Source: Aquimarina aggregata
GTDB lineage: Bacteria > Bacteroidota > Bacteroidia > Flavobacteriales > Flavobacteriaceae
Direction of reading: 5' to 3'
NCBI RefSeq assembly: GCF_001632745.1
Contig: NZ_LQRT01000001.1
Coordinates: 345,715 to 409,714 of the forward strand
Length of the DNA: 64,000 nt
In this document: positions 536 through 27,147 of the stretch, piece by piece
Layout: every line of letters starts with the position of its first letter
Position numbering within the stretch: position 1 is the first letter of the stretch
Program-made: the position numbers and the translations under genes
Notes under the pieces: generated by a model
Seen by the model: the letters and a program-made list of their open reading frames with translations, nothing else
Databases searched by the model: none
What the model was told of the DNA's origin: nothing

Positions 536-594
536 TTGTACCAGACGAGTACCCTTTTGTCCATTTTCTAAAACCTATAATCAATATACTTTTG
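536..594 (+). promoter_or_regulatory. TTGTCC-type activator site plus TAnnTTTG promoter for the Rid operon
   Basis: TTGTCCATTTTC starts at 557 and TACTTTTG, a match to the Bacteroidota -7 element TAnnTTTG, starts at 587, exactly 30 nt later. A second copy, TTGTACCAGACGAGTACC, starts at 536, 21 nt upstream of the first. Direct repeats two helical turns apart next to the core promoter are typical of AraC-family activators. The same layout recurs at 10155, 11903, 24391 (minus) and 26898 (minus). The predicted start of transcription is near 601, giving a leader of about 50 nt before the gene at 651. Confidence 0.6.
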
Positions 595-650: not shown

Positions 651-1067
651 ATGGCACAAGAAAAAGCTACCATATTACAACCAGAATATTACCAGCGTAG
701 AGCATCCGAAACTGAAAATGGTTTTGGATATTCATTTGCGGTAAAAATCGGTAACCTCATTAAAGCTTCGGGGGCTGTTAGTATGGACGAAGAAGGAAAA
801 CCAACTGCTATTGGTGATTATGCACAACAAATGAAAAATTGTTATGCAGATATTGAGAAAATGTTAATACATTATGGGTGTACTTTTGACGATATTATTG
901 TAGAAAACATCTATACTACAAACATGACTTTATTTATGGAAAATTTAGAATATCGAAAATCGTTATATACCGAAAACCGTTATCCAAAATCGACTTGGTT
1001 AGGAGTAAAAGAACTGGCAATGCCAGAACTTATGATAGAAATAGAAGTGGAGGTCTACATTCCATAA
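651..1067 (+). CDS. Rid-family (YjgF/YER057c/UK114) protein lacking the catalytic arginine
   Basis: The 138 residues match the Rid fold from end to end: FAVKIGNLIKASGAVSMDEEG, then the helix with QMKNCYADIEKMLIHYGCTFDDIIVENIYTT, and the C-terminal strand MIEIEVEVYIP. Archetypal RidA hydrolyses reactive enamines and imines and uses an arginine in a VAR-L-P motif just before the last strand. Here the aligned segment reads GVKELAMPEL, so the arginine appears to be replaced. That points to one of the Rid subfamilies without proven imine deaminase activity. It is the first gene of an operon whose next genes follow after 41 and 9 nt. Cytoplasmic, no signal peptide. The exact activity cannot be told. 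Confidence 0.85.
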   Translation: MAQEKATILQPEYYQRRASETENGFGYSFAVKIGNLIKASGAVSMDEEGKPTAIGDYAQQMKNCYADIEKMLIHYGCTFDDIIVENIYTTNMTLFMENLEYRKSLYTENRYPKSTWLGVKELAMPELMIEIEVEVYIP

Positions 1068-1108
1068 TAATAGCCATTATTTCTGTTATTGATAAAGATA
1101 TAAATACT

Positions 1109-1981
1109 ATGAAAAAAGAAAAATTAAATATCACAAGAGGCGCTACGTTTATAGCGCCTCTTATAACAGCAAAAGAACTTAATGCTATTTTAGGGCAATC
1201 CCATATCAAGATTTTTGATGTGCGAGGTACCTGGGGTACAGATCCTAGATCGTTATATAACGATTACTTATGGGGGCACATCCCGACTGCAACCTTTCTT
1301 GATTGGCGGAAAGAATTTATAGAGCAAGATATTGCGCCTAATTTAGCTCAGGTATCAACATATGAAGCAGCAAAACAATCTTTTAAGACGCTAGGTATCA
1401 ACAAAGAAGACACGGTAATACTCTATGATGACTATCATCATATGTTTGCTGGTAGAATCTGGTGGGCTATGCGATATTGGGGTTTTGAAAATGTTCGTGT
1501 TCTTAATGGCGGTTATAAATATTGGCAATTAGAAGGTTTACCTATTTCTCAAGAGTTTGATAAAATATTAGCAGGTACTTTTGAGCCTATATGTCAAGAA
1601 CATTTGCGAGTATCGCTTCCTGATTTTTTGATTAAAAAAGATAGTGCCTGTGTTTTAGACGGTCGTGGTATTGCCGGATACAACGGAAAACCAGAAGACC
1701 CAAGAACCGGACATATTCCTGGAGCAATTAGTGCTGCATATAACTCGCTTATAGACAAAAACACAGGACTTTTTCTAGAAAAGGAAGCAATTATCAAATT
1801 ATTTGATGAAACTATACCCAATTGGCGTACTAGCAATATTATTTCTTCTTGTGGTGCTGGATATTCTGGAACAGTTGTAATGATAGCATTAGCAAACTTA
1901 GGTATTCAAGCAAGTCTGTTTGACGGATCTTTCTCTGTATGGAAACAGGACCCTGAAAGACCTGTAGTACAATCCTTTTGA
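1109..1981 (+). CDS. Two-domain rhodanese sulfurtransferase (TST/MST type)
   Basis: I start at the ATG at 1109 (MKKEKLNITRG), because the longer frame from 995 would overlap the Rid gene by 73 nt and adds 38 residues unlike the family. This gives 290 residues, the usual size of a tandem rhodanese. The N-terminal domain carries FDVRGTW and the HIPTATFLDWRKEF segment; the C-terminal domain carries CVLDGRGIAGYNG, GHIPGAISAAYN and the active-site loop SSCGAGYSGT. The catalytic cysteine lies in a CGxG loop as in 3-mercaptopyruvate sulfurtransferases, but CGAGYSG differs from the common CGSGVTA, so the donor substrate is uncertain. No signal peptide. Probably co-transcribed with the genes on either side. 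Confidence 0.85.
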   Translation: MKKEKLNITRGATFIAPLITAKELNAILGQSHIKIFDVRGTWGTDPRSLYNDYLWGHIPTATFLDWRKEFIEQDIAPNLAQVSTYEAAKQSFKTLGINKEDTVILYDDYHHMFAGRIWWAMRYWGFENVRVLNGGYKYWQLEGLPISQEFDKILAGTFEPICQEHLRVSLPDFLIKKDSACVLDGRGIAGYNGKPEDPRTGHIPGAISAAYNSLIDKNTGLFLEKEAIIKLFDETIPNWRTSNIISSCGAGYSGTVVMIALANLGIQASLFDGSFSVWKQDPERPVVQSF

Positions 1982-1990
1982 GGTTTAAAA

Positions 1991-2410
1991 ATGAAAAATA
2001 CATTAATTCTATTTATAATATTTATGACATCCACTACAGCTACTTTTGCACAAATATCTGATCGAGAGTTAGTCGAAAACACATTAACCAACTATATGGA
2101 AGGTGGCAAAAACAATGACTTTACCACCTTGAAAAAAGCATTTCATAATACTGCAACCATGAAGTTTATCGGTGATCAATATACCGAAGTGAACGCATTA
2201 GAGTTCTTTGAAGAAAAAATGATTAAGGGTACTGTAATCGATAGAACCAACAGAATACATGATATTAGTATTTCTGGCAATGCTGCAAGTGCGAGGCTAG
2301 AACTAGAGTATCCAACATTTACGTATATAGATTATATGAGTCTTTTAAAAATAGAAGGTGAATGGAAAATCGTAAGTAAAATATTTTCTAAAAGAGAAAA
2401 ACAGAACTAA
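1991..2410 (+). CDS. Secreted NTF2-like (lumazine-binding-type) protein
   Basis: The 139-residue product has a clear Sec signal peptide (MKNTLILFIIFMTSTTATFAQ) followed by a cone-shaped NTF2-like domain. The pattern is SDRELVENTLTNYMEGGKNNDF, a helix, FIGDQYTEVNALEFFEEK, and the strands ISGNAASARLELEYP and LLKIEGEWKIVSKIFSKR. This matches the Flavobacteria family labelled putative lumazine-binding, for which no reaction is established. It starts 9 nt after the sulfurtransferase stop, so it is the third gene of that operon. The signal peptide puts it in the periplasm, unlike its two neighbours. A strong hairpin follows the stop. Confidence 0.75.
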   Translation: MKNTLILFIIFMTSTTATFAQISDRELVENTLTNYMEGGKNNDFTTLKKAFHNTATMKFIGDQYTEVNALEFFEEKMIKGTVIDRTNRIHDISISGNAASARLELEYPTFTYIDYMSLLKIEGEWKIVSKIFSKREKQN

Positions 2411-9327: not shown

Positions 9328-10125
9328 ATGAAAAGTGATCACTTTAGAATAGAAACCGACATCAATTATATAGATTCAAGAGATAAAATATTTAGAATGA
9401 TATTTATTAGCGCTGGCGATGCTACTATTAAAATTGATTTTTCAACATATAATATTTTGGGGCCCGCATTAATTTTCATCTCTGAAAATCAGTTATTAAG
9501 TATTGAAAAAAAATCGAGTGAATTAAGTGGAAAAGCTGTGTGCTTTTCTAATGACTTTTTTTGTATTAAATTAAACAGAAGTGAGACCTTCTGTGATGCT
9601 GTAATTTTTAACACTACCAAACCTCCGTATATTCCTTTACAAGCTTCTGAATCAAGAAAAGTAGACTATCTCATCACAGCTATGAATAATGAACTAGAAG
9701 AGGCCAATGATTTTCAAGAGGAAATCATTATTTCACAATTAAAAACCTTGTTACTATCCTCTTCCAAAATTAAACTGAAACAGTTTGGAGAAGTTAATTT
9801 ATCTATTCTATCCCCTGTTGTAACAGGATTTCAAAATCTTTTAGATCAAGAATATGAACGTCAGCATAATGTGCAATTTTATGCTGATGAACTAAATATT
9901 TCGCCAAAAGGGCTAAACAAAGCTGTCAAAAAAGAGTTAGGAAGAACAGTTAGTGAGTTAATCAAAGAAAAGCTAATCGTTGAAGCAAAAAGAGAACTTT
10001 ATACAAAAGAGCTTTCTATTAAGGAAATTGGTTTCAAATTAGGCTTCGAAGATCCTGCATATTTTAGTAGATTTTTCAGAAAAGAGACTTCGCATAGCCC
10101 AAAAGAATACGCAGAATTGCTGTAA
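9328..10125 (+). CDS. AraC-family transcriptional regulator
   Basis: 265 residues. The N-terminal ~150 residues form a cupin-like sensor region (RMIFISAGDATIKIDFSTYN, then KAVCFSNDFFCIKLNR, and FCDAVIFNTT). The C-terminal ~100 residues are a double helix-turn-helix: YADELNISPKGLNKAVKKE and IKEIGFKLGFEDPAYFSRFF, the second being the AraC signature. It is a paralogue of the AraC protein at 22424-23308; both share the FCI-x-C-x-A/G-V-FNT pattern in the sensor half. A TTGTCC-type promoter begins 30 nt after its stop, in front of the YpdA-like gene, and a second copy serves the YHS operon. It is a strong candidate activator of these sites. Its ligand is unknown. Confidence 0.9.
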   Translation: MKSDHFRIETDINYIDSRDKIFRMIFISAGDATIKIDFSTYNILGPALIFISENQLLSIEKKSSELSGKAVCFSNDFFCIKLNRSETFCDAVIFNTTKPPYIPLQASESRKVDYLITAMNNELEEANDFQEEIIISQLKTLLLSSSKIKLKQFGEVNLSILSPVVTGFQNLLDQEYERQHNVQFYADELNISPKGLNKAVKKELGRTVSELIKEKLIVEAKRELYTKELSIKEIGFKLGFEDPAYFSRFFRKETSHSPKEYAELL

Positions 10126-10154
10126 AGACCCAAAAACACCATACAAGGGGATAT

Positions 10155-10192
10155 TTGTCCTACCAGTAAAATCTTAAAGCCGAGTACGTTTG
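10155..10192 (+). promoter_or_regulatory. TTGTCC-type promoter for the YpdA/SDR operon
   Basis: TTGTCCTACC starts at 10155 and TACGTTTG, a perfect TAnnTTTG match, at 10185: the same 30-nt offset as at 557. The upstream repeat at 10134 is poorly conserved. Transcription should start near 10199, only about 9 nt before the ATG at 10208. The promoter overlaps the alternative TTG start at 10190, which argues against that start. Confidence 0.6.
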
Positions 10193-10207: not shown

Positions 10208-11194
10208 ATGACTCATTATAGCATACTTATTATTGGTGCGGGACCTATTGGTTTAAGTTGCGGAATCGAAGCTCAAAATGCTGGTATTTCATATAAAATT
10301 ATTGACAAAGGAACTCTTGTTAATTCTATCCACAATTTCCCTACAGATATGACATTTTTTTCTAGTTCTGAAAAATTAGAAATAGGAAACCTCCCTTTTA
10401 CATCACTTTCTGTACGCCCTACAAAACAAGAAGGTTTAGAATATTATAGACGTGTTGCCCAACATTATAAATTGAATATTGGCCTTTACGAAACATTCGA
10501 GTCTGTTAACAGAACATCTAATTTATCTAATAAAACACAATTTAAAATTGCTACATCCAAAGAAGCATATACTTGCGACTTTATCATAAATGCAACTGGG
10601 TTTTATGACTCTCCTGTTCTTCTGGATATTCCTGGCGAAAAACTTAAAAAAGTAAATCATTACTTTACATCAGCACACCATCTATTTAAACAAAAAGTTG
10701 CTGTTATTGGGGCCTCAAACTCTGCAATTGATGTTGCATTAGAGGCATATAGAAAAGGTGCTGAAACAACTCTTTTGGTAAGAGGAAAAGAAATTAGTCC
10801 AAATGTAAAATATTGGATCAAACCAGATATAGAGGCCAGAATTGCAGAAAACAACATTAATATATACTATGAATCCGATGTTACAGCAATATCTGATCGC
10901 CATATCATATTTAAATCAAGAAATCAAACCATAAAACTTGAAAATGACTTTGTGTATGCCATGACCGGATATAGACCTAATTTCAATTTATCAGAAAAAC
11001 TAGGAATAGAAATAGATTCTACTACGGGATACCCAAAATACAATAAAACTACCATGGAAACCACTAGCCCAAATGTTTATCTAGCGGGAGTTGTTATAGG
11101 CGGTATGAATACTCGCCAATGGTTCATAGAAAACTCAAGAGATCACGGAAGTAAAATTATCAATCACATAAAAAAATATGAAACTAAAAAATAA
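10208..11194 (+). CDS. ypdA: YpdA-like FAD/NAD(P) disulfide reductase family protein
   Basis: 328 residues from the ATG at 10208; the TTG at 10190 would add six residues but lies inside the promoter. The N-terminal dinucleotide fold reads SILIIGAGPIGLSCGIEAQ, and the second, NAD(P)-binding one VAVIGASNSAIDVALEA. The stretch IHNFPTDMTFFSSSEKLEIG is characteristic of YpdA. A C-terminal TGYRPN motif and GVVIGGMNTRQWFIENSRDHG close the protein. In Firmicutes YpdA reduces bacillithiol disulfide. There is no CxxC pair here, as usual for YpdA. It overlaps the SDR gene by 17 nt, so the two are translationally coupled. The call to family is firm; the substrate in this organism is inferred. Confidence 0.85.
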   Translation: MTHYSILIIGAGPIGLSCGIEAQNAGISYKIIDKGTLVNSIHNFPTDMTFFSSSEKLEIGNLPFTSLSVRPTKQEGLEYYRRVAQHYKLNIGLYETFESVNRTSNLSNKTQFKIATSKEAYTCDFIINATGFYDSPVLLDIPGEKLKKVNHYFTSAHHLFKQKVAVIGASNSAIDVALEAYRKGAETTLLVRGKEISPNVKYWIKPDIEARIAENNINIYYESDVTAISDRHIIFKSRNQTIKLENDFVYAMTGYRPNFNLSEKLGIEIDSTTGYPKYNKTTMETTSPNVYLAGVVIGGMNTRQWFIENSRDHGSKIINHIKKYETKK

Positions 11195-11870
11195 AGTGGC
11201 TATAGTAACAGGGTCTAGTAAAGGACTAGGACTAATTGTTGTTGAACAATTATTGGCCGAAGGTACATTTGTAATAGGTTTTAGTCGAAATAAAACTCCA
11301 ATAGATCATCCTAATTTTGAAGGATATTGTTTAGATATTGGAAACGAAAGTGCCGTTACAGAAACTTTTAACAACGTTATTAAAAAACACAACACCATTG
11401 ATGTCATTATTAATAATGCTGGTTTTGGGGATTATCATAAACTCGAAGAAACAGATTCTCAATTAATGAGACAAATGTTTGAAACTAATGTCTTTGGGGT
11501 TTTCTATCTCACCAAGTGTGCCATCCCTTTTATGAAAAAGTCGCAACAAGGTCATATTATTAACATTTCTTCTATTGCAGGAATAGTAGGTATAGAGAAC
11601 ATGTCGGTCTACAACGGGACGAAATTTGCCGTAAAAGGAATGTCCGAATCTTTATACAAAGAATTACGTCCCCACGGTATAAAAGTGACCTGTATTCTTC
11701 CTGGATCTATAAGTACTAATTTCTTCGATGATTTTGATGGTTTCACAGCTAGCAATACAATGATGAATCCAACAGATGTTGCAGATAGTATTTTATATTG
11801 TTTACAGTCTTCGGCTACGTTTCATCCAGTGAATTTAGAGATTAGACCATTTCATATCTCAAAACAATAA
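11178..11870 (+). CDS. Short-chain dehydrogenase/reductase
   Basis: 230 residues with all classical SDR landmarks: the cofactor motif VTGSSKGLG at the N-terminus, NNAGFGDY after the fourth strand, the catalytic serine in INISSIAGIVG, and YNGTKFAVKG with the YxxxK pair. The segment LPGSISTNFFDDF follows. FSRNK after strand 2 suggests NADP(H), with an arginine rather than an acidic residue there. The gene starts inside the end of the YpdA-like gene, so both are probably made together under the TTGTCC-type promoter. The substrate is unknown; a general carbonyl reductase role would fit the redox setting. Confidence 0.9.
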   Translation: MKLKNKVAIVTGSSKGLGLIVVEQLLAEGTFVIGFSRNKTPIDHPNFEGYCLDIGNESAVTETFNNVIKKHNTIDVIINNAGFGDYHKLEETDSQLMRQMFETNVFGVFYLTKCAIPFMKKSQQGHIINISSIAGIVGIENMSVYNGTKFAVKGMSESLYKELRPHGIKVTCILPGSISTNFFDDFDGFTASNTMMNPTDVADSILYCLQSSATFHPVNLEIRPFHISKQ

Positions 11871-11881
11871 TTAAAGGAAAA

Positions 11882-11940
11882 TAATACAAGTCAAGTTCCT
11901 TTTTATCCATTTCGTACCCTGTCTTATCAATATACCTTTG
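11882..11940 (+). promoter_or_regulatory. TTRTCC-type promoter for the YHS operon
   Basis: TTATCCATTTCG starts at 11903 and TACCTTTG (TAnnTTTG) at 11933, again exactly 30 nt apart. The sequence just before the -7 element, ATCAATATAC, is the same as that in front of the Rid operon (581-590 region). An upstream repeat at 11882 is recognisable but weak. The leader to the ATG at 11996 is about 50 nt. Confidence 0.55.
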
Positions 11941-11995: not shown

Positions 11996-12445
11996 ATGAG
12001 AAATTTAGTTCTTGCACTAACCGTGCTAATATCAACTACGAGCTTTGCTCAAAGTATTAATACAAAATCTGTAGCCCTAGAAGGATATGATCTTGTAGGA
12101 TATTTTACAAAAAACCAAGCCATTCAAGGTTCTGATAAATTATCTGTAGAAGTCGACGGGATACACTACTATTTTAGCAGTGTAGAAAATCAAAAACTAT
12201 TCAAAGAAAACCCAACCAAATACATGCCAGAATGTGGCGGTTTTTGTGCCACAGCAGTAGCCACATCAAACGCCAAGTTTCCAGTTGATCCTGAAACTTT
12301 TAAGGTAACAGATGGTAAACTTTATCTTTTTTATAACGGACCATATAAAGGTGCCAATTTTAATGGCAAAGACCCTTGGGTAAAAGATGAAAAAGCTCTG
12401 ATCAAAAAAGCAAATGATAACTGGAAGACACTTAAAAACAGTTAA
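11996..12445 (+). CDS. Exported YHS-domain protein
   Basis: 149 residues with a signal peptide ending at FAQ (residue 19). The mature part is the YHS-domain pattern: VALEGYDLVGYF, VDGIHYYFSSVENQKLFKENPTKYMPECGGFCATAV, DPETFKVTDGKLYLFYNG, and a C-terminal helix ending in NWKTL. Homologues are listed as YHS domain-containing (seleno)proteins; here the position after GGFCA is an ordinary residue. YHS domains are thought to bind metal through the conserved cysteine and nearby residues, but no role is established for this exported group. It is the first of two tandem YHS genes, separated by a hairpin. Confidence 0.85.
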   Translation: MRNLVLALTVLISTTSFAQSINTKSVALEGYDLVGYFTKNQAIQGSDKLSVEVDGIHYYFSSVENQKLFKENPTKYMPECGGFCATAVATSNAKFPVDPETFKVTDGKLYLFYNGPYKGANFNGKDPWVKDEKALIKKANDNWKTLKNS

Positions 12446-12457
12446 TCCAATTTCTAA

Positions 12458-12497
12458 TAAAGCCATCGTAGTGTTTTAACCTATAACGATGGCTTTA
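12458..12497 (+). terminator. Hairpin between the two YHS genes
   Basis: TAAAGCCATCGT at 12458-12469 pairs perfectly with 12486-12497 across a 16-nt loop. It lies 12 nt after the first YHS stop and 19 nt before the second YHS start. With only a short T-tract it may act as a partial terminator or stabilise the 3' end of the first message. Confidence 0.5.
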
Positions 12498-12516
12498 AAA
12501 TTTAAAAAACTAGCTT

Positions 12517-12954
12517 ATGAAAGTTTGTGCATTTATAATAGCGGTTTTCTTGATTTCATATAACCTGCAAGCCCAATCGATTAATATTAAAAAAGTGGCT
12601 ATAGAAGGCTATGATGTAGTCGCCTATCATAAAGGTCAAGCAATAGAAGGTACGAATAGATTAAGTGTAAAAATAAGAGACGTATTCTATCATTTTAGTA
12701 GCATTGAAAATAAGGCCCTTTTTAAGAAAAATCCAAAAAAGTACTTACCAAAATATGGAGGTTTCTGTGCCATCGGAATTGCAATATATGATGGCAAATA
12801 CAACATTGATCCAGAAGACTTTTTAATCGATAATGGTGAACTCTACCTATTCTGTCCTGATCAAATAGATAATTGGATAGCCGATCAAGAAAATCTAAAA
12901 AGGAAAGCTGAAATTGAATGGTTAAAAATGGAAGAAAAAGAAACTAAAAAATAA
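12517..12954 (+). CDS. Second exported YHS-domain protein
   Basis: 145 residues, a diverged tandem paralogue of the preceding gene. The signal peptide ends at LQAQ. Conserved parts are VAIEGYDVVAYHKGQAIEG, IRDVFYHFSSIENKALFKKNPKKYLPKYGGFCAIG, and DPEDFLIDNGELYLF. The loop corresponding to FYNGPYKGANF of the first protein is shortened, with CPDQ in its place, so a cysteine has been gained there. It starts an apparent operon with the next genes (4 nt to the next start). Function unknown; periplasmic location from the signal peptide. Confidence 0.8.
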   Translation: MKVCAFIIAVFLISYNLQAQSINIKKVAIEGYDVVAYHKGQAIEGTNRLSVKIRDVFYHFSSIENKALFKKNPKKYLPKYGGFCAIGIAIYDGKYNIDPEDFLIDNGELYLFCPDQIDNWIADQENLKRKAEIEWLKMEEKETKK

Positions 12955-12958
12955 TACA

Positions 12959-13345
12959 ATGAAACAATACATTTTTTTAGCCTTTAGCATTATAGTAATC
13001 ACATTTAATAGTAATGCTCAAAGCAAAGACAATCCCTATGCGGGAAAAACATTTAGAATTGATAATTATATAGGTGACAAACTAGATAATTCTGAAGATT
13101 TAGTATTCACAAATAACGAAGTTGAAGGCTCTATTTGTGTACAGTATGGATTTAAAAAAGCTAAATACACTACCACAATTAATAAAAAAGGACTTCAAGA
13201 GTTTTCCTGCACAATGATTAGCAAAGAACACGGAAAAATGGTATGGACAGGCGAAAAGAACAAAAATCAAATCTCCGGAAAATACCTATGGACTAAGGAA
13301 GGACAAGATCCAATACAGTATACTTTCAAAGGAAAAATTAAATGA
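12959..13345 (+). CDS. Small exported protein of unknown function
   Basis: 128 residues with a signal peptide ending near SNAQ (residue 20). The mature part begins NPYAGKTFRIDNYIG and is predicted beta-rich, with repeated strand-turn units (EDLVFTNNEVEGSICVQYGF, MVWTGEKNKNQISGKYLWTKEG, YTFKGKIK) like a small lipocalin or DUF-type barrel. I do not recognise a named family. Two cysteines (SICVQ and FSCTM) could pair. It sits 4 nt after the second YHS gene and 1 nt before the next gene, so it belongs to that operon. Confidence 0.55.
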   Translation: MKQYIFLAFSIIVITFNSNAQSKDNPYAGKTFRIDNYIGDKLDNSEDLVFTNNEVEGSICVQYGFKKAKYTTTINKKGLQEFSCTMISKEHGKMVWTGEKNKNQISGKYLWTKEGQDPIQYTFKGKIK

Positions 13346-13346
13346 C

Positions 13347-14303
13347 ATGAAAAAAAGCAACATTTATATATCACTATTTTCTCTGTCCGGAATACTAATC
13401 TTAACTATTATAATCTCATCTTTTACTAAATCCAAAAAAGATGAAAAACTCCCCTTGAATACTAGTATCTCTAACCTTATTTTTGAAGGGCAAAGAACCG
13501 TTTCTAAAAAAACAAAAGAGTTTTGGTTTGACGGAAAAGCAGAACTTTCGAGTTATAAATTAACTCAAGCCAGATATGGTGAAACACACCAAGGCACAGC
13601 AGTTTTAGTATACGTAACAGAGCCATTTTCTAAAAAAGCAAATACAAAAGCTGATCACAATAATCCCAACAATGTATCTGTTCTAAAACTCAACAAAACA
13701 CTAAAATTTAATACTGGTATTTATCCGTATTCGATGATGACTAGTACATTTTTTCCTTTAGAAAAAGAAAACACTTCGCTAAAAATTACTTCTTCATTAC
13801 AAGAATGGTGTGGTATGACTCACCTTGAAATGAAAAACGAAACTGATTTTATATTTGATTTTAGTTCATATTATGAAGGATTTACTTTTAAAAATAAAGT
13901 GATTAAAAAAACAATATTAGAAGATGATTTATGGACATTGATGCGTTTGAATCCAGAATTACTTCCTATTGGCGAGTATGACATTATACCGTCAATGTCG
14001 TTCTTACGATTAAGAAATCGAGAACCAAAAGCATACAAAGCAATCATCACCCTACAAAATGATGATAAAGGCACCTCCCATTACACCATGAACTATCCTG
14101 AATTAGAACGTGAACTTACGATACACTACACTTCAATATTTCCTTATGCTATTTTAGGATGGGAAGACACCCACTATAGTGGTTATGGAGATGAAAAAAA
14201 ACTACAAACCTCTAAAGCCGAACTCTTAAAAACTATTAAAACCGATTATTGGAATCAAAATCACAATAAAGACAAACACTGGAGAAAGAAGCTCGAATTA
14301 TAA
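13347..14303 (+). CDS. Uncharacterised exported protein (family often auto-labelled 'septum formation inhibitor Maf')
   Basis: 318 residues with an N-terminal hydrophobic segment (residues 8-28), either an uncleaved anchor or a signal. The body has EFWFDGKAELSSYKLTQARYGETHQGTAVLVYVTEPF, LKLNKTLKFNTGIYPYSMMTSTFFPL and SSLQEWCGMTHLEM. From memory these are the landmarks of a Bacteroidota family that automatic pipelines sometimes name after Maf. No nucleotide-pyrophosphatase motif of true Maf is present, so that name should not be used. It starts 1 nt after the preceding stop and is probably translationally coupled to it. The role is unknown. Confidence 0.6.
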   Translation: MKKSNIYISLFSLSGILILTIIISSFTKSKKDEKLPLNTSISNLIFEGQRTVSKKTKEFWFDGKAELSSYKLTQARYGETHQGTAVLVYVTEPFSKKANTKADHNNPNNVSVLKLNKTLKFNTGIYPYSMMTSTFFPLEKENTSLKITSSLQEWCGMTHLEMKNETDFIFDFSSYYEGFTFKNKVIKKTILEDDLWTLMRLNPELLPIGEYDIIPSMSFLRLRNREPKAYKAIITLQNDDKGTSHYTMNYPELERELTIHYTSIFPYAILGWEDTHYSGYGDEKKLQTSKAELLKTIKTDYWNQNHNKDKHWRKKLEL

Positions 14304-14322
14304 AATACTTAAACCAAACAAC

Positions 14323-14865
14323 ATGAAAAATACACTTATTATCATAGCACATCCCAATTATAAAAATTCTACAGCTAACAAAATAATAGTTGATTCTTTA
14401 ATAGATAACATAAAAAATTATGATGTACACAATTTATCCGAGCTCTATCCCAACTTTAATATTGACGTAAAAAAAGAACAAGATGCACTGGTAAAGGCTG
14501 ACCACATTATTTTTCAGTTTCCGTTCTACTGGTATAGTGTACCGCCAATTTTAAAACAATGGATAGATATAGTATTAACATATGGTTTTGCATATGGAGA
14601 AGGAGGAGACAAGTTAAAAGGAAAAAGTTTTATTGTCAGTACTACTACCGGAACACCACTCGAAGCGTATAAAAGTGATGGAGCGAATAAGTATACGATG
14701 GAAGAATTTTTGTATCCCATTAAACAAACGGCAAAATTATGTCTTATGAACTATATAGCCCCTGTGTACTCACATTCAATGATTGCTTGGAAAAAAGAAG
14801 ATCAAATACAGGTGAGAAATAAAGCAAAAGAACATGCTAATCGTTTACTAACTTTAGTGTCATAA
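14323..14865 (+). CDS. Flavodoxin-fold NAD(P)H-dependent oxidoreductase (NQO1/KefF type)
   Basis: 180 residues. The N-terminus TLIIIAHPNYKNSTANKII is the flavin phosphate-binding region, and FQFPFYWYSVPPILKQWIDIVLTYGFAYGEGG is the diagnostic quinone-reductase stretch around the isoalloxazine site. VSTTTGTPLEAY follows on the third strand. Members reduce quinones and other electrophiles by two electrons with FMN or FAD. It lies 19 nt after the previous gene and 31 nt before the methyltransferase, in the same direction. It fits the redox and electrophile theme of the YpdA, SDR and Rid genes; the actual substrate is not known. Confidence 0.85.
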   Translation: MKNTLIIIAHPNYKNSTANKIIVDSLIDNIKNYDVHNLSELYPNFNIDVKKEQDALVKADHIIFQFPFYWYSVPPILKQWIDIVLTYGFAYGEGGDKLKGKSFIVSTTTGTPLEAYKSDGANKYTMEEFLYPIKQTAKLCLMNYIAPVYSHSMIAWKKEDQIQVRNKAKEHANRLLTLVS

Positions 14866-14896
14866 ATCTAAAACAACTAACTAATAAAGACAGATA

Positions 14897-15715
14897 ATGA
14901 GTAATGATATAAAATTTGATTTTGCAAACAATTCAATAGCGACAGCCTATGACCAAGTTTTAGTTCCTTTACTTTTTGAACCTTGGACCACAAGACTTAT
15001 TACAGAAAACAAGCCTTGGTCTGGTAAATATGTTTTAGATCTAGCTTGCGGTACAGGAGCTGTTACAAAACAACTTTTAAATCATGTCACTTGTAAAGGA
15101 AAAGTATTTGCTTTAGATCTAAATGAAGAAATGCTTGCCATTAATAAAAAGAAGTTTGAAGAATTAGGCTGTGAAGATGTAATCGAATTCATTCATGCAT
15201 CCGCAGAAAAAATCCCAATTGAAGACAATACTCTAGACACTGTAATATGCCAACAAGGATTTCAATTTTTTCCTGATAAGCACAAAGCCGCCAGAGAAAT
15301 ATATAGAATACTAAATAAAGGAGGAGAATTAGTTATCTCTACTTGGCTTCCTGTTTCTGAATGTGAAATCTTTGGAATGCTCTGCGAAACATTAGAGGAA
15401 ATAGAAGAAAAAGAATTATCTCAATTAATGCGCATACCTTTTGATTATATGCAAAAGGACGAGTTAAAAACGGTTTTTACAAAAGCTGGCTTTAACACCA
15501 TCAAAATTGAAAAACAATCCATGAATCTTCACCTACCTGAAGGAGTGAATCAAGCTCTTGCATTTGTATACGGAACTCCTATCGGACCTAAGTTAAAAGC
15601 GTTACCTCTAGAAAAACAAGAAAAATTTAAAGAAATCTTTACGAAAAAATTAAATCGATTCGATAAGAATAATTTTGGTAAAATGGCCGCATATATCTTA
15701 AAAACTCAAAAATAA
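14897..15715 (+). CDS. Class I SAM-dependent methyltransferase
   Basis: 272 residues. Motif I reads YVLDLACGTGAVTKQL, motif II FALDLNEEML, then EFIHASAEKIPIEDNTLDTVICQQGFQFFPD, which is the UbiE/COQ5-like post-II region. The second half (IPFDYMQKDELKTVFTKAGF onward) is a smaller-molecule substrate cap without a recognised signature. A small organic acceptor is likely; quinone, lipid and polyketide-like substrates all remain possible. It is the last gene of the run starting at 12517. A gap without a gene follows. Confidence 0.85.
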   Translation: MSNDIKFDFANNSIATAYDQVLVPLLFEPWTTRLITENKPWSGKYVLDLACGTGAVTKQLLNHVTCKGKVFALDLNEEMLAINKKKFEELGCEDVIEFIHASAEKIPIEDNTLDTVICQQGFQFFPDKHKAAREIYRILNKGGELVISTWLPVSECEIFGMLCETLEEIEEKELSQLMRIPFDYMQKDELKTVFTKAGFNTIKIEKQSMNLHLPEGVNQALAFVYGTPIGPKLKALPLEKQEKFKEIFTKKLNRFDKNNFGKMAAYILKTQK

Positions 15716-22423: not shown

Positions 22424-23308
22424 TTATTCCTCTGCATGAGCAAATCCAACAGTATCTCTATATAGTTGCGGAGATACATCTGTGTTGTTTTTAAAAAATC
22501 TGCTAAAATAATGCTCATCTTGATATCCTAATTCATAAGCTATTTCTTTAACTGTTTTACTCGTTAAATACAATTCTCTTTTTGCCTCAATAATTATTCT
22601 CTCAGAGATTAGATCAGTTAATGTTTTATTAAAGTATTTCTTAGTGATTTTTGCCAAAGATTTAGGAGAGATATTTAATAAATCAGCATAATCACTTGCA
22701 GAATGTTTCGATTTAAAATGAGCTTCTATATTGTCTTTTAAATTTTGTAAAATAAATGGATTTTGACTATCAGATTGTTCTTCCTTAAATTCTGGTATTT
22801 GCTGACTTTTGAGTCTAGAAGTTGTAATCAAAAATATTTTTAAATAAGATATTAATAGTTCATATTGTGCCAAATCCGGATTATGTAATTCGGTTTTTAA
22901 TTGGCTTACAACCATTTCTAAAGTAGTAGCAGAAACACTATCTATTGCCACAATCGGAGAGCTGTAAACTGTATTAAACAAAACTCCATTACAAGAAACC
23001 TCTTTATGATGTTTATGAATACAGAAAAAATCAGGATGAAAATTCAAGACGACTCCCTTAACCTCTTCAGCATGAATTAACATAAACGGTTGATAGGGTG
23101 CAAACGCTAATAAATCATTTTCAACAAAATCATATTCAGAAAAATCAACTTTTACTTTCCCTGTTCCTTTTTGAATCCATATTAATGAAAAATAATTTAG
23201 TCTTTGAATATGATCAAAATGACTATTATCCTGAAAATAGAAAAGTTTAAAAGCTAAATTTCCGTTTTGTTGATTAATTAATGTAAAAACATTTTCTTTA
23301 AACATCAC
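22424..23308 (-). CDS. AraC-family transcriptional regulator, paralogue of the one at 9328
   Basis: 294 residues. The cupin-like N-terminal half has FSLIWIQKGTGKVKVDFSEYDF, GVVLNFHPDFFCIHKHHKEVSC and NGVLFNTVYSSP. The C-terminal half has the paired helix-turn-helix YADLLNISPKSLAKITKKYF and VKEIAYELGYQDEHYFSRFFKNN. The sensor half resembles the other AraC protein in the window. It is the third gene of a minus-strand operon (6 nt from DUF1348) headed by a TTGTCC-type promoter at 24391, so it probably regulates its own operon. Its ligand is unknown. Confidence 0.9.
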   Translation of the reverse strand: MMFKENVFTLINQQNGNLAFKLFYFQDNSHFDHIQRLNYFSLIWIQKGTGKVKVDFSEYDFVENDLLAFAPYQPFMLIHAEEVKGVVLNFHPDFFCIHKHHKEVSCNGVLFNTVYSSPIVAIDSVSATTLEMVVSQLKTELHNPDLAQYELLISYLKIFLITTSRLKSQQIPEFKEEQSDSQNPFILQNLKDNIEAHFKSKHSASDYADLLNISPKSLAKITKKYFNKTLTDLISERIIIEAKRELYLTSKTVKEIAYELGYQDEHYFSRFFKNNTDVSPQLYRDTVGFAHAEE

Positions 23309-23314
23309 CCATTG

Positions 23315-23734
23315 TTATTTAAATTTTCTTTCATTATCACGTATCGATAAGTCGTTAATACTAGCAAATCTTTTCTTCATGAGTCCATTTTCATCAAACT
23401 CCCAGTTTTCATTGCCATATGCTCTGAACCAGTTACCCTCTTTATTTTGATATTCATATTCGAACCTAACTGCGATTCTATTTTCTGTATACCCCCAAAG
23501 TTCTTTTTTAAGTTGATAGTTTTTTTCTTTTTCCCACTTTTCAGTTAGAAAAGCGACAATTTCTTCTCTTCCGTTTATAAAATCTACGCGATTCCGCCAT
23601 TCACTATCAACAGTATATGCTTTAGAGACTTTTTCTGGGTCTTTACTATTCCAAGCATCTTCTGCTAATTGTACTTTTTGTTTGGCAGTTTCCTTGGTAA
23701 AAGGAGGCAATGGTAGTTTTTGTTCTTTACTCAT
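23315..23734 (-). CDS. DUF1348 (SnoaL/NTF2-like) protein
   Basis: 139 residues. The sequence follows the DUF1348 family closely: [55 protein letters not shown], then [16 protein letters not shown] and [18 protein letters not shown]. The fold is a small NTF2-like cone with a hydrophobic pocket. No enzymatic reaction is established. No signal peptide. It lies between the AhpD-like gene (57 nt) and the AraC gene (6 nt) and is presumably expressed with them. Such proteins often accompany stress or detoxification operons, which fits this context. Confidence 0.85.
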
Positions 23735-23791
23735 CTCTATTTATTAATTCGATTATTAAATATAAAGTTTTAATACTAATACGTATTCATT

Positions 23792-24331
23792 TTATTCCTC
23801 TAAAGTAAGAGCCAAAGGGTAGTCCACAGCAACTTTAGTAAAATTATGCAAGTAGTTCAAAACAACTTTCTCACTTATTTGCAGCATTAAATCAATAAGA
23901 TTCTCTTTGGTGTATCCTTGTTTAAAGAACGCCTTGGTCTTGCTTTCATGTACGTTCCCTTTATTTTTTAGTATTTCTATAGTTAATTCTACTAATGTAT
24001 TTATTTTAATATCACCACTTCTTCCTTTACGGATATCAACAATTTCTTCTTCAGTAAATCCTTTAATTTTTCCCAAAACCATATGACTACTTAAACAATA
24101 GATAGAATCATTAAACTGGCTTACTACTAGATTTATAGCTTCTCTTTCCATTCCATTTAACGACGTTTCAGAATTTTGATACGTTAAAAACCTAAACAAA
24201 CCATTCTCTGAGTGCGCCAAAACTGCATGTAGATTTGGAACAAACCCCAACGTTTCTTCAAAAACTTCAAAAATAGCTTGGTTAACCGGCCCAACCTCTT
24301 CTTTCTTAGGGATATTGAATGTCTTGGTCAT
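23792..24331 (-). CDS. Carboxymuconolactone decarboxylase/AhpD-like protein with degraded CxxC
   Basis: 179 residues, all-helical. AhpD-like peroxidase-related proteins carry a CxxC motif followed by histidine. Here the segment reads SQFNDSIYCLSSHMVLG: the resolving side (Cys, then His three residues later) is kept but the first cysteine is a serine. The usual thiol-disulfide cycle should therefore not work as in AhpD, and the acidic residue before the motif is a glutamine, as in related families. The start at 24331 is 23 nt below the -7 element of a TTGTCC-type promoter. It is the first gene of the operon with DUF1348 and AraC. The function remains open. Confidence 0.8.
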   Translation of the reverse strand: MTKTFNIPKKEEVGPVNQAIFEVFEETLGFVPNLHAVLAHSENGLFRFLTYQNSETSLNGMEREAINLVVSQFNDSIYCLSSHMVLGKIKGFTEEEIVDIRKGRSGDIKINTLVELTIEILKNKGNVHESKTKAFFKQGYTKENLIDLMLQISEKVVLNYLHNFTKVAVDYPLALTLEE

Positions 24332-24353: not shown

Positions 24354-24412
24354 CAAGTATACTATCATATTAATATTCGTAAAATGGACAATCATCGCAA
24401 GTTGATGGATAA
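24354..24412 (-). promoter_or_regulatory. TTGTCC-type promoter with 21-bp direct repeat, minus strand
   Basis: On the minus strand TTGTCCATTTTACG starts at 24391 and TATACTTG (-7 element, one mismatch to TAnnTTTG) starts at 24361, 30 nt downstream. A second copy, TTATCCATCAACTTGCG, starts at 24412, 21 nt upstream. The repeat pair is nearly identical to that at 26898-26919. The rest of the gap to the thiolase gene at 24609 shows a small dyad (GAGATTC/GAATCTC at 24483-24504) and no clear promoter for the plus strand. Confidence 0.65.
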
Positions 24413-24608
24413 TTTTCCCCAAAAACTGTCCTTAACTTTATATTAGGGAAAAAAGTCCATTTAATAGCGTACATTCTCCAAGGAGATTCTTAAAAATGAA
24501 TCTCAAATTTGTACTACGTTGAAATGTAAGTATCTCATATAATATCAGGACAAATCATATGAACTGAAAATGTTGTCAATAGGTAAAAACTAATTTGAAA
24601 ATCTAAGT

Positions 24609-25889
24609 ATGAATAATCTTAATCGTAAAGTTGCTATTATTGGTGGAGCCAGGATTCCTTTTACAAAATCTTTTACCCACTACACTCGTGTTTCGAACAA
24701 TAGTTTAATGACCGGTGCTCTAAAGGCTCTCGTTAAAAAGTATAATCTTGAAGGAAAAAAAATTGACGAAATTGCTTTAGGAACTTTGATTCATTATTCA
24801 ACAGATTGGAATTGGGCAAGAGAAAATGTCCTTAGTAGCGGATTAGACCCTCATTCTCCAGTTCATTTTATAAGTAGGGCATGCGGTACAAGTCTTGACG
24901 CAGCGAATACTATTGCCATGAAAATTGCAACAGGGCAGATTGATATCGGAATTGCAGGAGGAAGTGATACCAATAGTGACACTCCATTGACTATTCGTCA
25001 ATCCTTGGCGTGGGACCTTATGGATATTCGAAATGCAAAAACAACTGGAAAGCGATTACAACAAATTTTTAAAACAAAATGGTTTGACTTTTTTAAATTG
25101 CTGTATCCAAGTGTATACGAACCTCGCACCAAAATGAGTATGGGTGATCATACAGAATTAACTGTAAAAAAATGGGGTATTAATAGAATTGAGCAAGATG
25201 AACTTGCTTACCTGAGTCATCATAAAGCTCAAAAAGCTTATGAAGATGGCTTTTATGACGATTTAGTTTATGAATTTAACGGGATCAAAAAGGATAGTAT
25301 TATTAGAGGCAATACCTCTATTGAAAAACTAAGCACTCTAAAACCGGCATTTGACAAATCAGATTCTGGTACGCTAACTGCAGGAAATAGCTCAGCGTTT
25401 ACCGATGGAGCTTCTACAATTCTTCTTACCTCTGAAGAATATGCAAAAGAACATAATTTAGAAATTGAAGCAAATTTGATAGATATTCAAAATGCGGCGT
25501 TTGATTATGTAAATGGAGAAGATTTATTACTTGCCCCAACAGTAGCGGTCTCTAACCTATTAAAACGTAATAATCTCACATTACAAGACTTTGATTTTTA
25601 TGAAATACATGAAGCCTTTTCTGGACAAGTGTTAGCAACTTTAAAAGCATGGGAAAGTGATGATTTTGCGCGTAATGTTCTTAATAGAGATAAAGCTTTG
25701 GGCGCTATAGATCGTACTAAAATAAATACAAAAGGCGGCAGTACTGCCATGGGACATCCTTTTTCTGCAACAGGAACCCGAGTACTAGCCAATGCTGCAA
25801 AAATTATAAAAGAAAATGGAGGTGGTCGTTGTCTTGTTTCTGTCTGTACAGCAGGCGGAATGGGAACAGCAGCTATTGTCGAAGGCTAA
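24609..25889 (+). CDS. Acetyl-CoA acyltransferase (thiolase)
   Basis: 426 residues, typical of the FadI-like thiolases. The nucleophile Cys92 lies in HFISRACGTSLDAA; NNSLMTGAL precedes it and GGSDTNSD follows. The C-terminal catalytic pieces are DFYEIHEAFSGQ, GGSTAMGHPFSATGTR and SVCTAGGMGTAA, in which the histidine and second cysteine of the family are seen. It would catalyse thiolytic cleavage of 3-ketoacyl-CoA in beta-oxidation, or the reverse condensation. No hydratase or dehydrogenase partner is adjacent. The MOSC gene follows after 3 nt, so the two form an operon. Confidence 0.92.
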   Translation: MNNLNRKVAIIGGARIPFTKSFTHYTRVSNNSLMTGALKALVKKYNLEGKKIDEIALGTLIHYSTDWNWARENVLSSGLDPHSPVHFISRACGTSLDAANTIAMKIATGQIDIGIAGGSDTNSDTPLTIRQSLAWDLMDIRNAKTTGKRLQQIFKTKWFDFFKLLYPSVYEPRTKMSMGDHTELTVKKWGINRIEQDELAYLSHHKAQKAYEDGFYDDLVYEFNGIKKDSIIRGNTSIEKLSTLKPAFDKSDSGTLTAGNSSAFTDGASTILLTSEEYAKEHNLEIEANLIDIQNAAFDYVNGEDLLLAPTVAVSNLLKRNNLTLQDFDFYEIHEAFSGQVLATLKAWESDDFARNVLNRDKALGAIDRTKINTKGGSTAMGHPFSATGTRVLANAAKIIKENGGGRCLVSVCTAGGMGTAAIVEG

Positions 25890-25892
25890 AAA

Positions 25893-26693
25893 ATGAAAAA
25901 ACCTTATATCTCAAAAATTCGTGTCTATCCTGTAAAATCATTAGACCCCATAGAAGTTAATAAAGCAGAAATAGGCATTCACTCACTTCGTTATGATAGA
26001 GAATTTGCTATGGTTGCAGATGACCGACGCTATGTAAACGCTAAACGAACTGGGCGTGTTAATCAATTAAAAGCAACTTACGACTTACCTAATCAACGTA
26101 TTTTCTTATCTCATAGAGATGGGGGAGAAATAAATGATTTTGAGTTAAGAGAAAATAATAAAGCGTTAGAAAAGTATTTAGAAGATTTTTTTGATATGAA
26201 ACTCACCTTATATCATCGTACCAGAGGCGAACTTATGGACATTCCTAAGGCGAGTAGTATCACTATTGTTAGTGAAGCATCTTTACAATCTTTACATCAA
26301 GATTTTAGTGATCATACACTAGAAGATTTGCGATTACGTTTTCGGGCCAATATTGAAATCGGAGGTGTAGATCCTTATTGGGAAGAAAAACTATTTGGTG
26401 AACAAGGTATCGGTTTTCGTTTTCTGGTAGGCAATGTTGAGATGATTGGTGTAAGTCCTCGAGCACGTTGTAATGTTCCTCCTCGAGATCCCTTTACAGG
26501 AGAAACAGATAAAACCTTTGTAAAAACGATGCTAGAAAGTAGGTCTAAAAGCCTACCAACAGATAGTTTATTGTCAAACTATGGAAGTTTGTATCATTTA
26601 ACCGTGAATACATTTGTGCCCGAATCAGAAAAAGGAAAAATAATTACGGTCGGTGATGAAATAGAAATTATCGAACCTGTACGATTGCAATAA
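25893..26693 (+). CDS. MOSC-domain protein (MOSC N-terminal barrel plus MOSC)
   Basis: 266 residues. The N-terminal beta barrel begins ISKIRVYPVKSLDPIEV with EFAMVADDRRYVNAKR, as in YcbX and mARC proteins. The MOSC core carries RFRANIEIGGVDPYWEEKLFG and the conserved cysteine in SPRARCNVPPRDPFTGE, expected to bind the molybdenum cofactor sulfur. Such proteins reduce N-hydroxylated compounds or carry sulfur. There is no ferredoxin domain, so an outside electron donor would be needed. Coupled to the thiolase by a 3-nt gap; a metabolic link between the two is not obvious. Confidence 0.88.
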   Translation: MKKPYISKIRVYPVKSLDPIEVNKAEIGIHSLRYDREFAMVADDRRYVNAKRTGRVNQLKATYDLPNQRIFLSHRDGGEINDFELRENNKALEKYLEDFFDMKLTLYHRTRGELMDIPKASSITIVSEASLQSLHQDFSDHTLEDLRLRFRANIEIGGVDPYWEEKLFGEQGIGFRFLVGNVEMIGVSPRARCNVPPRDPFTGETDKTFVKTMLESRSKSLPTDSLLSNYGSLYHLTVNTFVPESEKGKIITVGDEIEIIEPVRLQ

Positions 26694-26707
26694 TAAAGTG
26701 TGTATTT

Positions 26708-26854
26708 TTTTAATTGAGGTCTGGCAATCATGTAACCAAACCCCAATTAAAACAATCTTACAAAGCTTTTGTTACCGATACTTTTCTAAGATTATATTGA
26801 TGATTATAGTTCTAATATCTATTTTTTAGAACCATCGTTTTGTAATCATCATTA
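26708..26854 (-). ncRNA. Possible small RNA (or 8-codon peptide mRNA) under a TTGTCC-type promoter
   Basis: A promoter at 26861-26919 points left into a gap with no gene. The predicted transcript begins near 26854 and reaches a 17-bp hairpin (26708-26724 with 26736-26752). On the minus strand every pair forms, two as G-U; on the plus strand the same positions are A-C mismatches. This supports the minus-strand RNA as the functional one. No T-tract follows, so the 3' end is uncertain. Directly at the predicted start there is a tiny frame, 26852-26826 (MMITKRWF), which would be leaderless. The existence of the transcript is inference from promoter and structure. Confidence 0.35.
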
Positions 26855-26860
26855 TTAAAA

Positions 26861-26919
26861 CAAAAATACTTTTGAATCCGCGTAAATGAAATGGACAAAT
26901 AACGCTAGTTCATGGATAA
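26861..26919 (-). promoter_or_regulatory. Orphan TTGTCC-type promoter with 21-bp direct repeat, minus strand
   Basis: On the minus strand TTATCCATGAACTAGCG starts at 26919, TTGTCCATTTCATT at 26898 and TATTTTTG (TAnnTTTG) at 26868. The spacings 21 and 30 equal those in front of the AhpD-like operon, and the boxes are nearly the same. It is the only copy without an annotated gene behind it. Confidence 0.55.
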
Positions 26920-26943: not shown

Positions 26944-27147
26944 CTAAATATAAGTTAACGGTCCTATAGGAGAAGTTATGCCTGAATTAATTGATGTTAA
27001 ACATTCTAACGAAGACGTTGGTAAATCCGTTTTAGTAGTATTTGACACTTTCGAAATTCCTCCCCCATTGATTGAAGCCATATCCCCTAATTTTGCAATT
27101 TTGGTTTTTTCTAAATTGAGTAAAGATTTTTTGTGATTTGTTTTCAT
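26944..27147 (-). CDS. Probable RiPP precursor peptide (class I lanthipeptide-like leader, GG type)
   Basis: 67 residues. The first ~30, KKSLLNLEKTKIAKLGDMASINGGG, follow the Bacteroidota natural-product leader pattern: basic start, regularly spaced Leu/Ile, an L-x-x-M-x-x-I stretch and a terminal double glycine. The ~37-residue core is rich in Ser and Thr (about 14) with a single cysteine in SSLECLTS and ends in PLTYI. Many Ser/Thr with one Cys would allow dehydration and one thioether ring. No LanB, LanC, cyclase or ABC transporter lies in the window, so modification enzymes would have to act from elsewhere. Upstream, TACTTTG near 27180 is close to, but one base short of, TAnnTTTG. Confidence 0.6.
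   Translation of the reverse strand: MKTNHKKSLLNLEKTKIAKLGDMASINGGGISKVSNTTKTDLPTSSLECLTSINSGITSPIGPLTYI

Follow-up and report, generated by a model that had tools for sequence, protein, structure and literature searches.

The question raised by this locus is what might read a TTRTCC box that recurs exactly 30 nt before the -7 element of several promoters, and whether these promoters answer to one regulator or to more than one. The window – the whole 64,000-nucleotide stretch of DNA analysed here – had earlier been interpreted without database searches, and that sequence-only reading listed five such promoters, with boxes starting at 557, 10155, 11903, 24391(-) and 26898(-) and -7 elements at 587, 10185, 11933, 24361(-) and 26868(-). 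When the letters were rechecked, all of these starts proved right, each -7 element lying exactly 30 nt after its box; so did the tally of four perfect -7 elements plus one with a single mismatch (24361), and the claim that three sites have a second box 21 nt upstream (536, 24412 and 26919). Sites 11903 and 10155 carry a different but conserved block at the second-box position. All five promoters are thus upheld as real, but the list was incomplete, for there is a sixth at 24474(+).

We consider it highly probable that the six sites serve as operators for a pair of sister AraC-type activators. Each activator is predicted to contact two tandem half-sites spaced by 21 bp, the nearer of which stands 30 bp before the -7 element. 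The sites and the two regulators are as follows.

536..594, forward strand: site 1, type A, before the Rid, sulfurtransferase and NTF2-like genes; distal block TTGTACCAG (536-544), proximal box TTGTCCATTT (557-566), -7 element TACTTTTG (587-594), predicted start at about 599.
10134..10192, forward strand: site 2, the weakest of type A, before the YpdA and SDR genes; distal block ACACCATACAAGG, proximal box TTGTCC(TACC) (10155-10164), -7 element TACGTTTG (10185-10192).
11882..11940, forward strand: site 3, type A, before the row of genes running from two YHS genes to the KefF-like and methyltransferase genes; distal block TAATACAAG (11882-11890), proximal box TTATCCATTT (11903-11912), -7 element TACCTTTG (11933-11940).
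24354..24412, reverse strand: site 4, type B, before the AhpD-like, DUF1348 and AraC genes; distal box TTATCCAT (24412-24405), proximal box TTGTCCATTT (24391-24382), -7 element TATACTTG (24361-24354).
26861..26919, reverse strand: site 5, type B, not followed by any protein gene; distal box TTATCCAT (26919-26912), proximal box TTGTCCATTT (26898-26889), -7 element TATTTTTG (26868-26861).
24453..24511, forward strand: site 6, type B, new, before the thiolase and MOSC genes and divergent from site 4; distal box AAGTCCAT (24453-24460), proximal box TTCTCCAAGG (24474-24483), -7 element CAAATTTG (24504-24511).
9328..10125, forward strand: AraC-type regulator A, 265 aa, with HTH_18, which would act on sites 1-3.
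22424..23308, reverse strand: AraC-type regulator B, 294 aa, with HTH_18, whose targets would be sites 4-6 and its own operon.

The -7 element TAnnTTTG is perfect in sites 1, 2, 3 and 5 and has one mismatch in site 4 (TATACTTG) and in site 6 (CAAATTTG), the latter form being common among the sites of relatives. Site 6 has a poor proximal box (TTCTCCAAGG); its distal box, spacing and -7 element fit. In sites 1 and 3, the type-A distal block is conserved at a matching phase, yet shows no clear repeat, and that of site 2 – which begins 30 nt past the stop of the 9328 AraC gene – is ambiguous.

In flavobacterial promoters, the -33 element may lie 20-26 nt before the -7 element, and at this distance from the -7 start a TTG is absent in all six promoters. 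According to the accessible part of PMC6847099, a weak -33 element is common in Flavobacterium, so the missing TTG is no proof of activation; the same source places the -7 element at -12 to -5 and reports that position -9 is almost never G in F. johnsoniae, while site 2 has G there. On that placement, the distal half-site begins at -63 and the proximal one at -42, the proximal box extending to -33. The sites are most likely class-II AraC activator sites that replace the missing -33 element. In the mechanism that we propose, an inducer – probably a reactive small molecule – would be sensed by the N-terminal barrel of the regulator; a dimer would then occupy -63 to -33, stand in for the missing -33 element and recruit sigma-A RNA polymerase by class-II activation, and regulator B would thereby raise its own expression too.

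It is unlikely that the AraC proteins instead repress here, or that the inducer flips them between repression and activation, a dual behaviour of which autoregulated one-component AraC proteins are capable and which E. coli AraC exemplifies. Against this alternative, the sites lie immediately upstream of promoters that lack TTG at -33, the classical place for an activator, and a Rob box overlapping -35 counts as class II in the accessible part of PMC13335620.

If the sites are activator operators, the next issue is how many activators they serve. A type-B matrix, trained on the relatives of the 22424 AraC with no site of the window, ranks 26898(-) as the best of the window (45.9), followed by 24391(-) (40.6) and 24474(+) (35.4); the next match, 11903, reaches 17.4, the reversed window 13.4 and site 557 only 3.5. 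A type-A matrix, trained on relatives of the 9328 AraC plus AraC genes of a more remote group (10 sites from 8 loci, four of them orthologues of sites 1 and 3), gives 50.0 to 557 and 45.1 to 11903, then 20.5 to 26898, the best site of the 22424 type, and 18.3 to 10155, so that site 2 scores below a type-B site on its own matrix.

Comparison with relatives divides the sites in the same manner. Two other genomes (G216 and G214) have an 88% orthologue of the 9328 AraC amid the same genes and keep sites 1-3, and their best 22424-like protein is a 47-51% paralogue; conversely, relatives of 22424 carry type B at loci where the only 9328-like match is that same protein. When the three species are aligned, the distal region from -25 to -1 is invariant in 18, 21 and 24 of 25 columns for sites 1, 2 and 3, respectively, the proximal box in 9, 7 and 10 of 10 columns and the 20-nt spacer in 8, 7 and 8; the fixed bases of the -7 element are kept, 6 of 6, in each. 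In G216 and G214, the sulfurtransferase, AraC and YpdA genes are adjacent; in the window, about 7 kb of other genes separates the sulfurtransferase from 9328. At one G214 locus (L132, about 10307-11113), the site-1 promoter is retained and drives an SDR gene placed before Rid.

Divergence of the regulators is likewise followed more closely by the distal half-site (box 1) than by the proximal one (box 2). The Mantel correlation with AraC divergence is 0.84 for box 1, 0.29 for box 2 – a low value that is partly built in, because box 2 was used in picking the sites – 0.57 for the spacer, and 0.57 and 0.63 for the flanks; the spacer value implies that shared descent contributes to the correlation of box 1. 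This comparison left out sites inside AraC genes, those more than 3 kb upstream or more than 1.9 kb downstream and weaker matches, and a second site was removed by hand from each of L135, L138 and L208.

The earlier view of one regulon under one AraC is therefore not supported: the two matrices split the sites, and sites 1-3 persist in G216 and G214, which have no close orthologue of 22424. We infer that 557, 10155 and 11903 are probably controlled by AraC 9328, and 24391, 24474(+) and 26898 by its paralogue 22424. That a single one of the two proteins binds all sites seems quite improbable: the proximal box is nearly identical at all sites, the paralogues are 33-34% identical and the genes lie within 26 kb, but the distal boxes form two classes, each matching the loci of one regulator's relatives, and the mutual absences just described – sites 1-3 without a close 22424 orthologue, type B where the sole 9328-like match is the 22424 relative itself – argue against it.

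The surroundings of related AraC genes link the sites to AraC. A search over ±2.5 kb of 38 loci selected by AraC rank, allowing at most one mismatch each in the proximal box and the -7 element, turned up 27 sites at spacing 30 on the AraC strand, spread over 23 loci, against one on the opposite strand and a mean of 1.6 (maximum 6) at other spacings. This set omits L151-L157 and L168-L170, which had been fetched partly on a known pattern match, and includes one locus, L167, from the genome of the window itself. At 32 loci of more distant AraC genes, a spacing-30 box occurred four times on the AraC strand. The site lies either before the operon that contains the AraC gene or 10-98 bp past the AraC stop, ahead of the next gene, with a few further off. 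Altogether 42 of 47 family loci kept a site, a figure that counts the poorly matching L101; L141, L161 and L164 gained one via the matrix, and L146 and L207, both among the 38 rank-selected loci, have no clear site.

The second half-site is equally regular. In 27 loci of 22424 relatives (at least 45% identity), the proximal box and the -7 element served as the sole criteria for picking 23 sites; TCCAT stands exactly 21 bp upstream in 22 of them, and the second half-site had played no part in the picking. With a leave-one-out matrix covering both boxes and the -7 element, the top match exceeded the reversed control in 27/27 loci of 22424 relatives, 25 of these matches being on the AraC strand and two on the opposite strand. 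In the control AraC group, one of 32 loci scores above 25, and there are several weaker look-alikes 7-58 bp behind the AraC gene; L218, L219 and L229, with control AraC genes of about 35% identity, carry such an element past the stop, so the layout may extend beyond the two AraC groups. The spacing, the AraC strand and the 22/23 second boxes together support, as a prediction from sequence, the earlier proposal that an AraC-type protein acts via two repeats spaced by 21 bp, the proximal one ending at -33.

Further afield, a Saprospiraceae metagenome contig has a type-B element before a YHS-AhpD-DUF1348-AraC row, the AraC being 71% identical, and L263 has an exact site ahead of AhpD-MOSC; a search for relatives of the AhpD-like protein in named genomes returned two loci only. 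At L149 (8426-9040, genome G290), a DUF417 gene – which we take to belong to the RclC-type family – follows the AraC gene and site.

Beyond such loci, the single-box pattern thins out to background. TTRTCCATTT-N20-TANNTTTG occurs exactly three times in the 6.19-Mb genome (60 contigs), all inside the window, against 0 exact matches in the reversed control. With up to two mismatches it gives 61 matches in the same genome against 64 in reversed controls; in 52 genomes of the genus, 157 against 155 with at most one mismatch; and in 198 other genomes of the family, 10 exact matches against 7 control matches in all 199. The whole-genome matrix scan put forward in the sequence-only reading thus finds background rates outside the cluster at the level of genome, genus and family, which implies that there is no large regulon and that the signal is local: the regulons are local to the cluster. 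Other one-mismatch matches to this ten-base version in the same genome lie on contigs C24, C46 and C60, that on C46 having no second box.

Patterns with both boxes fare differently according to their stringency. The looser RTCCAT-N15-RTCCATT yields 67 matches in the genome with at most one mismatch, against 75 in controls, and six exact ones, three of which correspond to sites 4 and 5 and to a promoter belonging to a third AraC paralogue. Both boxes plus the -7 element give 106 matches against 65 in controls at up to three mismatches, with two exact – site 5 being one of them – and one at one mismatch; the control has one at up to one mismatch and 0 exact. The third paralogue, 46-47% identical to regulator B, has its exact element about 850 nt upstream:

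G000:C1:253335-253390 (L249, L167), reverse strand: exact two-box element with -7 element of the third AraC paralogue.

In the 52 genus genomes, the full pattern has 15 exact matches; 13 are outside the genome of the window, and 12 of these 13 lie within 2 kb of a 22424 relative. Across 395 genomes of the phylum, there are 12 exact places in 10 genomes, the control columns being 0. AhpD-, DUF1348-, MOSC- or AraC-type genes follow six of the ten exact phylum places outside the window's own genome; as for the others, three precede sugar-transporter-like ORFs and one a SusC-like ORF, their first residues having been judged by eye. The three (L259, L260 and L261) belong to other families of the class, and perhaps reflect sugar regulators that use the same layout.

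These distributions also bear on the notion that the proximal box belongs to the core promoter, as a variant recognised by sigma-A or a different sigma factor, and is no activator site at all. It would account for the constant distance to the -7 element, for a box that touches the -33 position and for the lower variability of box 2 compared with box 1 between AraC clades. We nonetheless judge it very unlikely, as the pattern is not enriched genome-wide and is instead concentrated next to a single AraC group, on the strand of the AraC gene, a second box standing two helical turns away.

Within the window, the spacing itself departs from expectation. TTRTCC followed after 30 nt by TANNTTTG occurs exactly four times; elsewhere in the range of spacings from 10 to 59, exact pairs occur just twice, once each at 41 and 51. 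When the window was simulated 120 times with a first-order Markov model, spacing 30 gave a mean of 0.08. With one mismatch allowed, seven matches stand against 1.8 expected, and since one of 100 shuffles also reached seven, this count taken by itself is weaker evidence. Chance matches in AT-rich DNA – an explanation to which that shuffle, and genome-wide counts equal to those of controls, might lend some colour – are extremely improbable, given that 0/120 simulated windows reached four exact pairs at any single spacing from 15 to 45 and that the sites show three-species conservation and 27/27 leave-one-out matches; the cross-genome tests refute chance for sites 1 and 3-5, site 2 resting mainly on the three-species conservation and site 6 on a single matrix score.

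The genes that the two activators are predicted to control, and the stretch behind site 5, are listed below.

651..2410, forward strand: predicted target operon of site 1, Rid (651-1067), sulfurtransferase (about 1070-1981) and NTF2-like (1991-2410).
10211..11870, forward strand: predicted target operon of site 2, YpdA family (10211-11194) and SDR (11178-11870).
11996..15715, forward strand: predicted targets of site 3, two YHS proteins, two unknowns, a KefF-like flavoprotein and a methyltransferase.
23315..24331, reverse strand: predicted targets of site 4, AhpD/CMD-like (23792-24331) and DUF1348 (23315-23734), then regulator B.
24609..26693, forward strand: predicted targets of site 6, thiolase (24609-25889) and MOSC (25893-26693).
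26695..26858, reverse strand: hairpin-rich stretch directly behind site 5.

Sites 6 and 4 stand back to back, and at L141 a type-B site is followed by a gene row that combines homologues of the thiolase and MOSC proteins (68% and 67% identity) with a relative of 22424. It is likely that the neighbouring detoxification-like enzymes are switched on by the AraC regulators. A role in "redox or electrophile stress", as proposed earlier, would be read solely from the kinds of genes present.

Site 5 is the exception. No gene lies behind the 26898 site, where all ORFs of at least 20 aa have at most 48 aa. The 164 nt that follow it fold into three hairpins at -45.3 kcal/mol (z -6.85), and 0/200 shuffles fold as well. 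Among relatives, the stretch has matches in 11/110 genomes, none convincing, the sole match below 1e-4 outside its own genome covering 30 bases; in Rfam it has two weak matches far under the curated scores. It may encode a small RNA, or be a relic – the leader or orphan promoter of a lost gene; it could also be the terminator region of the convergent MOSC gene. Nearby, a 67-aa ORF on the reverse strand (26944-27147 of the window), which begins MKTNHKKSLLNLEKTKIAKLGDMASINGGG and has no NCBIfam match, presumably resembles the leader of a ribosomally made peptide.

HTH_18 scores above the Pfam cut-off in both regulators, and helix-turn-helix domains are the only Pfam domains in either (265 and 294 aa). 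The structure model of regulator B (mean pLDDT 78.1, pTM 0.55) shows a beta-barrel and two helix-turn-helix units and matches AraC-family structures; the N-terminal strand-rich barrel, which has no Pfam domain, resembles the regulatory domain of RhaR (TM 0.73 by target length). After the barrel, residues 94-108 carry a conserved FFCI..H....E..C motif in a low-confidence loop of the model; C96 is present in 42/48 family proteins and C106 in 25/48, and both in 32/32 control AraC proteins. The motif is possibly a redox or metal sensor. The best NCBIfam match of both regulators is HpaA (TIGR02297), and close relatives are named 'activator of pobA' in databases; an HpaA identity was rejected, the scores of 85.7 and 101.2 bits being far under the cut-off of 274.65 bits, and no aromatic hydroxylase was found among the window proteins scanned and listed.

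As a tentative and rather doubtful conjecture, the proximal half-site TRTCCATTY might be common to many paralogous regulators and double as the replaced -33 element, the distal half-site alone, always 21 bp out, might name the regulator, and site 5 might drive a hairpin-rich small RNA. If this were true, sequence alone could suffice to assign operators to thousands of such regulators, by inspecting the DNA 30 bp ahead of a -7 element; in Bacteroidota, AraC-type relatives of regulator B number 4994 proteins at E 1e-30 or better. The rule – 21 bp, 30 bp, AraC strand – would pair a regulator with its operator and is testable. Two paralogous regulons side by side would also offer a view on how specificity splits, and, given a known inducer, the promoters could serve as inducible tools.

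How much of this was already known? In the literature searched, which mostly stopped short of subscription papers, no description of an operator for this AraC group was found, and among the matches listed for TTGTCC together with AraC there was nothing related. A flavobacterial start-site study (PMC9723704) reports, in its accessible part, sigma-A motifs around TAnnTTTG, and neither TTGTCC nor 'direct repeat' was found in that part. Direct repeats of 21 bp for Bacteroides AraC-type regulators are already known, and the regulon described here was not found in the accessible portions of these sources.

The closest known systems are indeed those of Bacteroides, for which, as far as the accessible parts of the papers go, tandem half-sites with a 21-bp periodicity are predicted for the AraC-type domain of RhaR (PMC3870299) and 21-bp direct repeats for hybrid two-component systems (PMC3878776). 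The tandem 21-bp half-sites are shared, but those systems, on the same accessible text, govern sugar use, whereas here one-component regulators lie by AhpD, YHS, SDR and Rid genes, their predicted half-sites read TRTCCAT and the step to the -7 element is fixed at 30 bp. In the hybrid systems, moreover, the AraC-type domain is joined to kinase and receiver domains, and Pfam detects neither in regulators A and B.

Among class-II AraC/XylS proteins, SoxS, MarA and Rob likewise combine a box at -35 – the Rob box overlaps the -35 element in the accessible part of PMC13335620 – with a DNA-binding domain of two helix-turn-helix units, and there is a sequence match to the SoxS of 7w5w. These proteins act on sigma-70 promoters, whereas the promoters here have the Bacteroidota -7 element and a second tandem box. 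YqhC and RclR, two AraC-family proteins of E. coli, are close as well: in the accessible parts of PMC5297802 and PMC7464077, they activate adjacent reductase or disulfide-reductase genes for aldehydes or HOCl. RclR, in the same portion, needs Cys-21 and Cys-89, whereas regulator B has C96 and C106, the latter not kept in all relatives. The gene sets differ as well, and the likeness of YqhC and RclR to the present regulators is one of family and of activating neighbouring genes, as predicted here.
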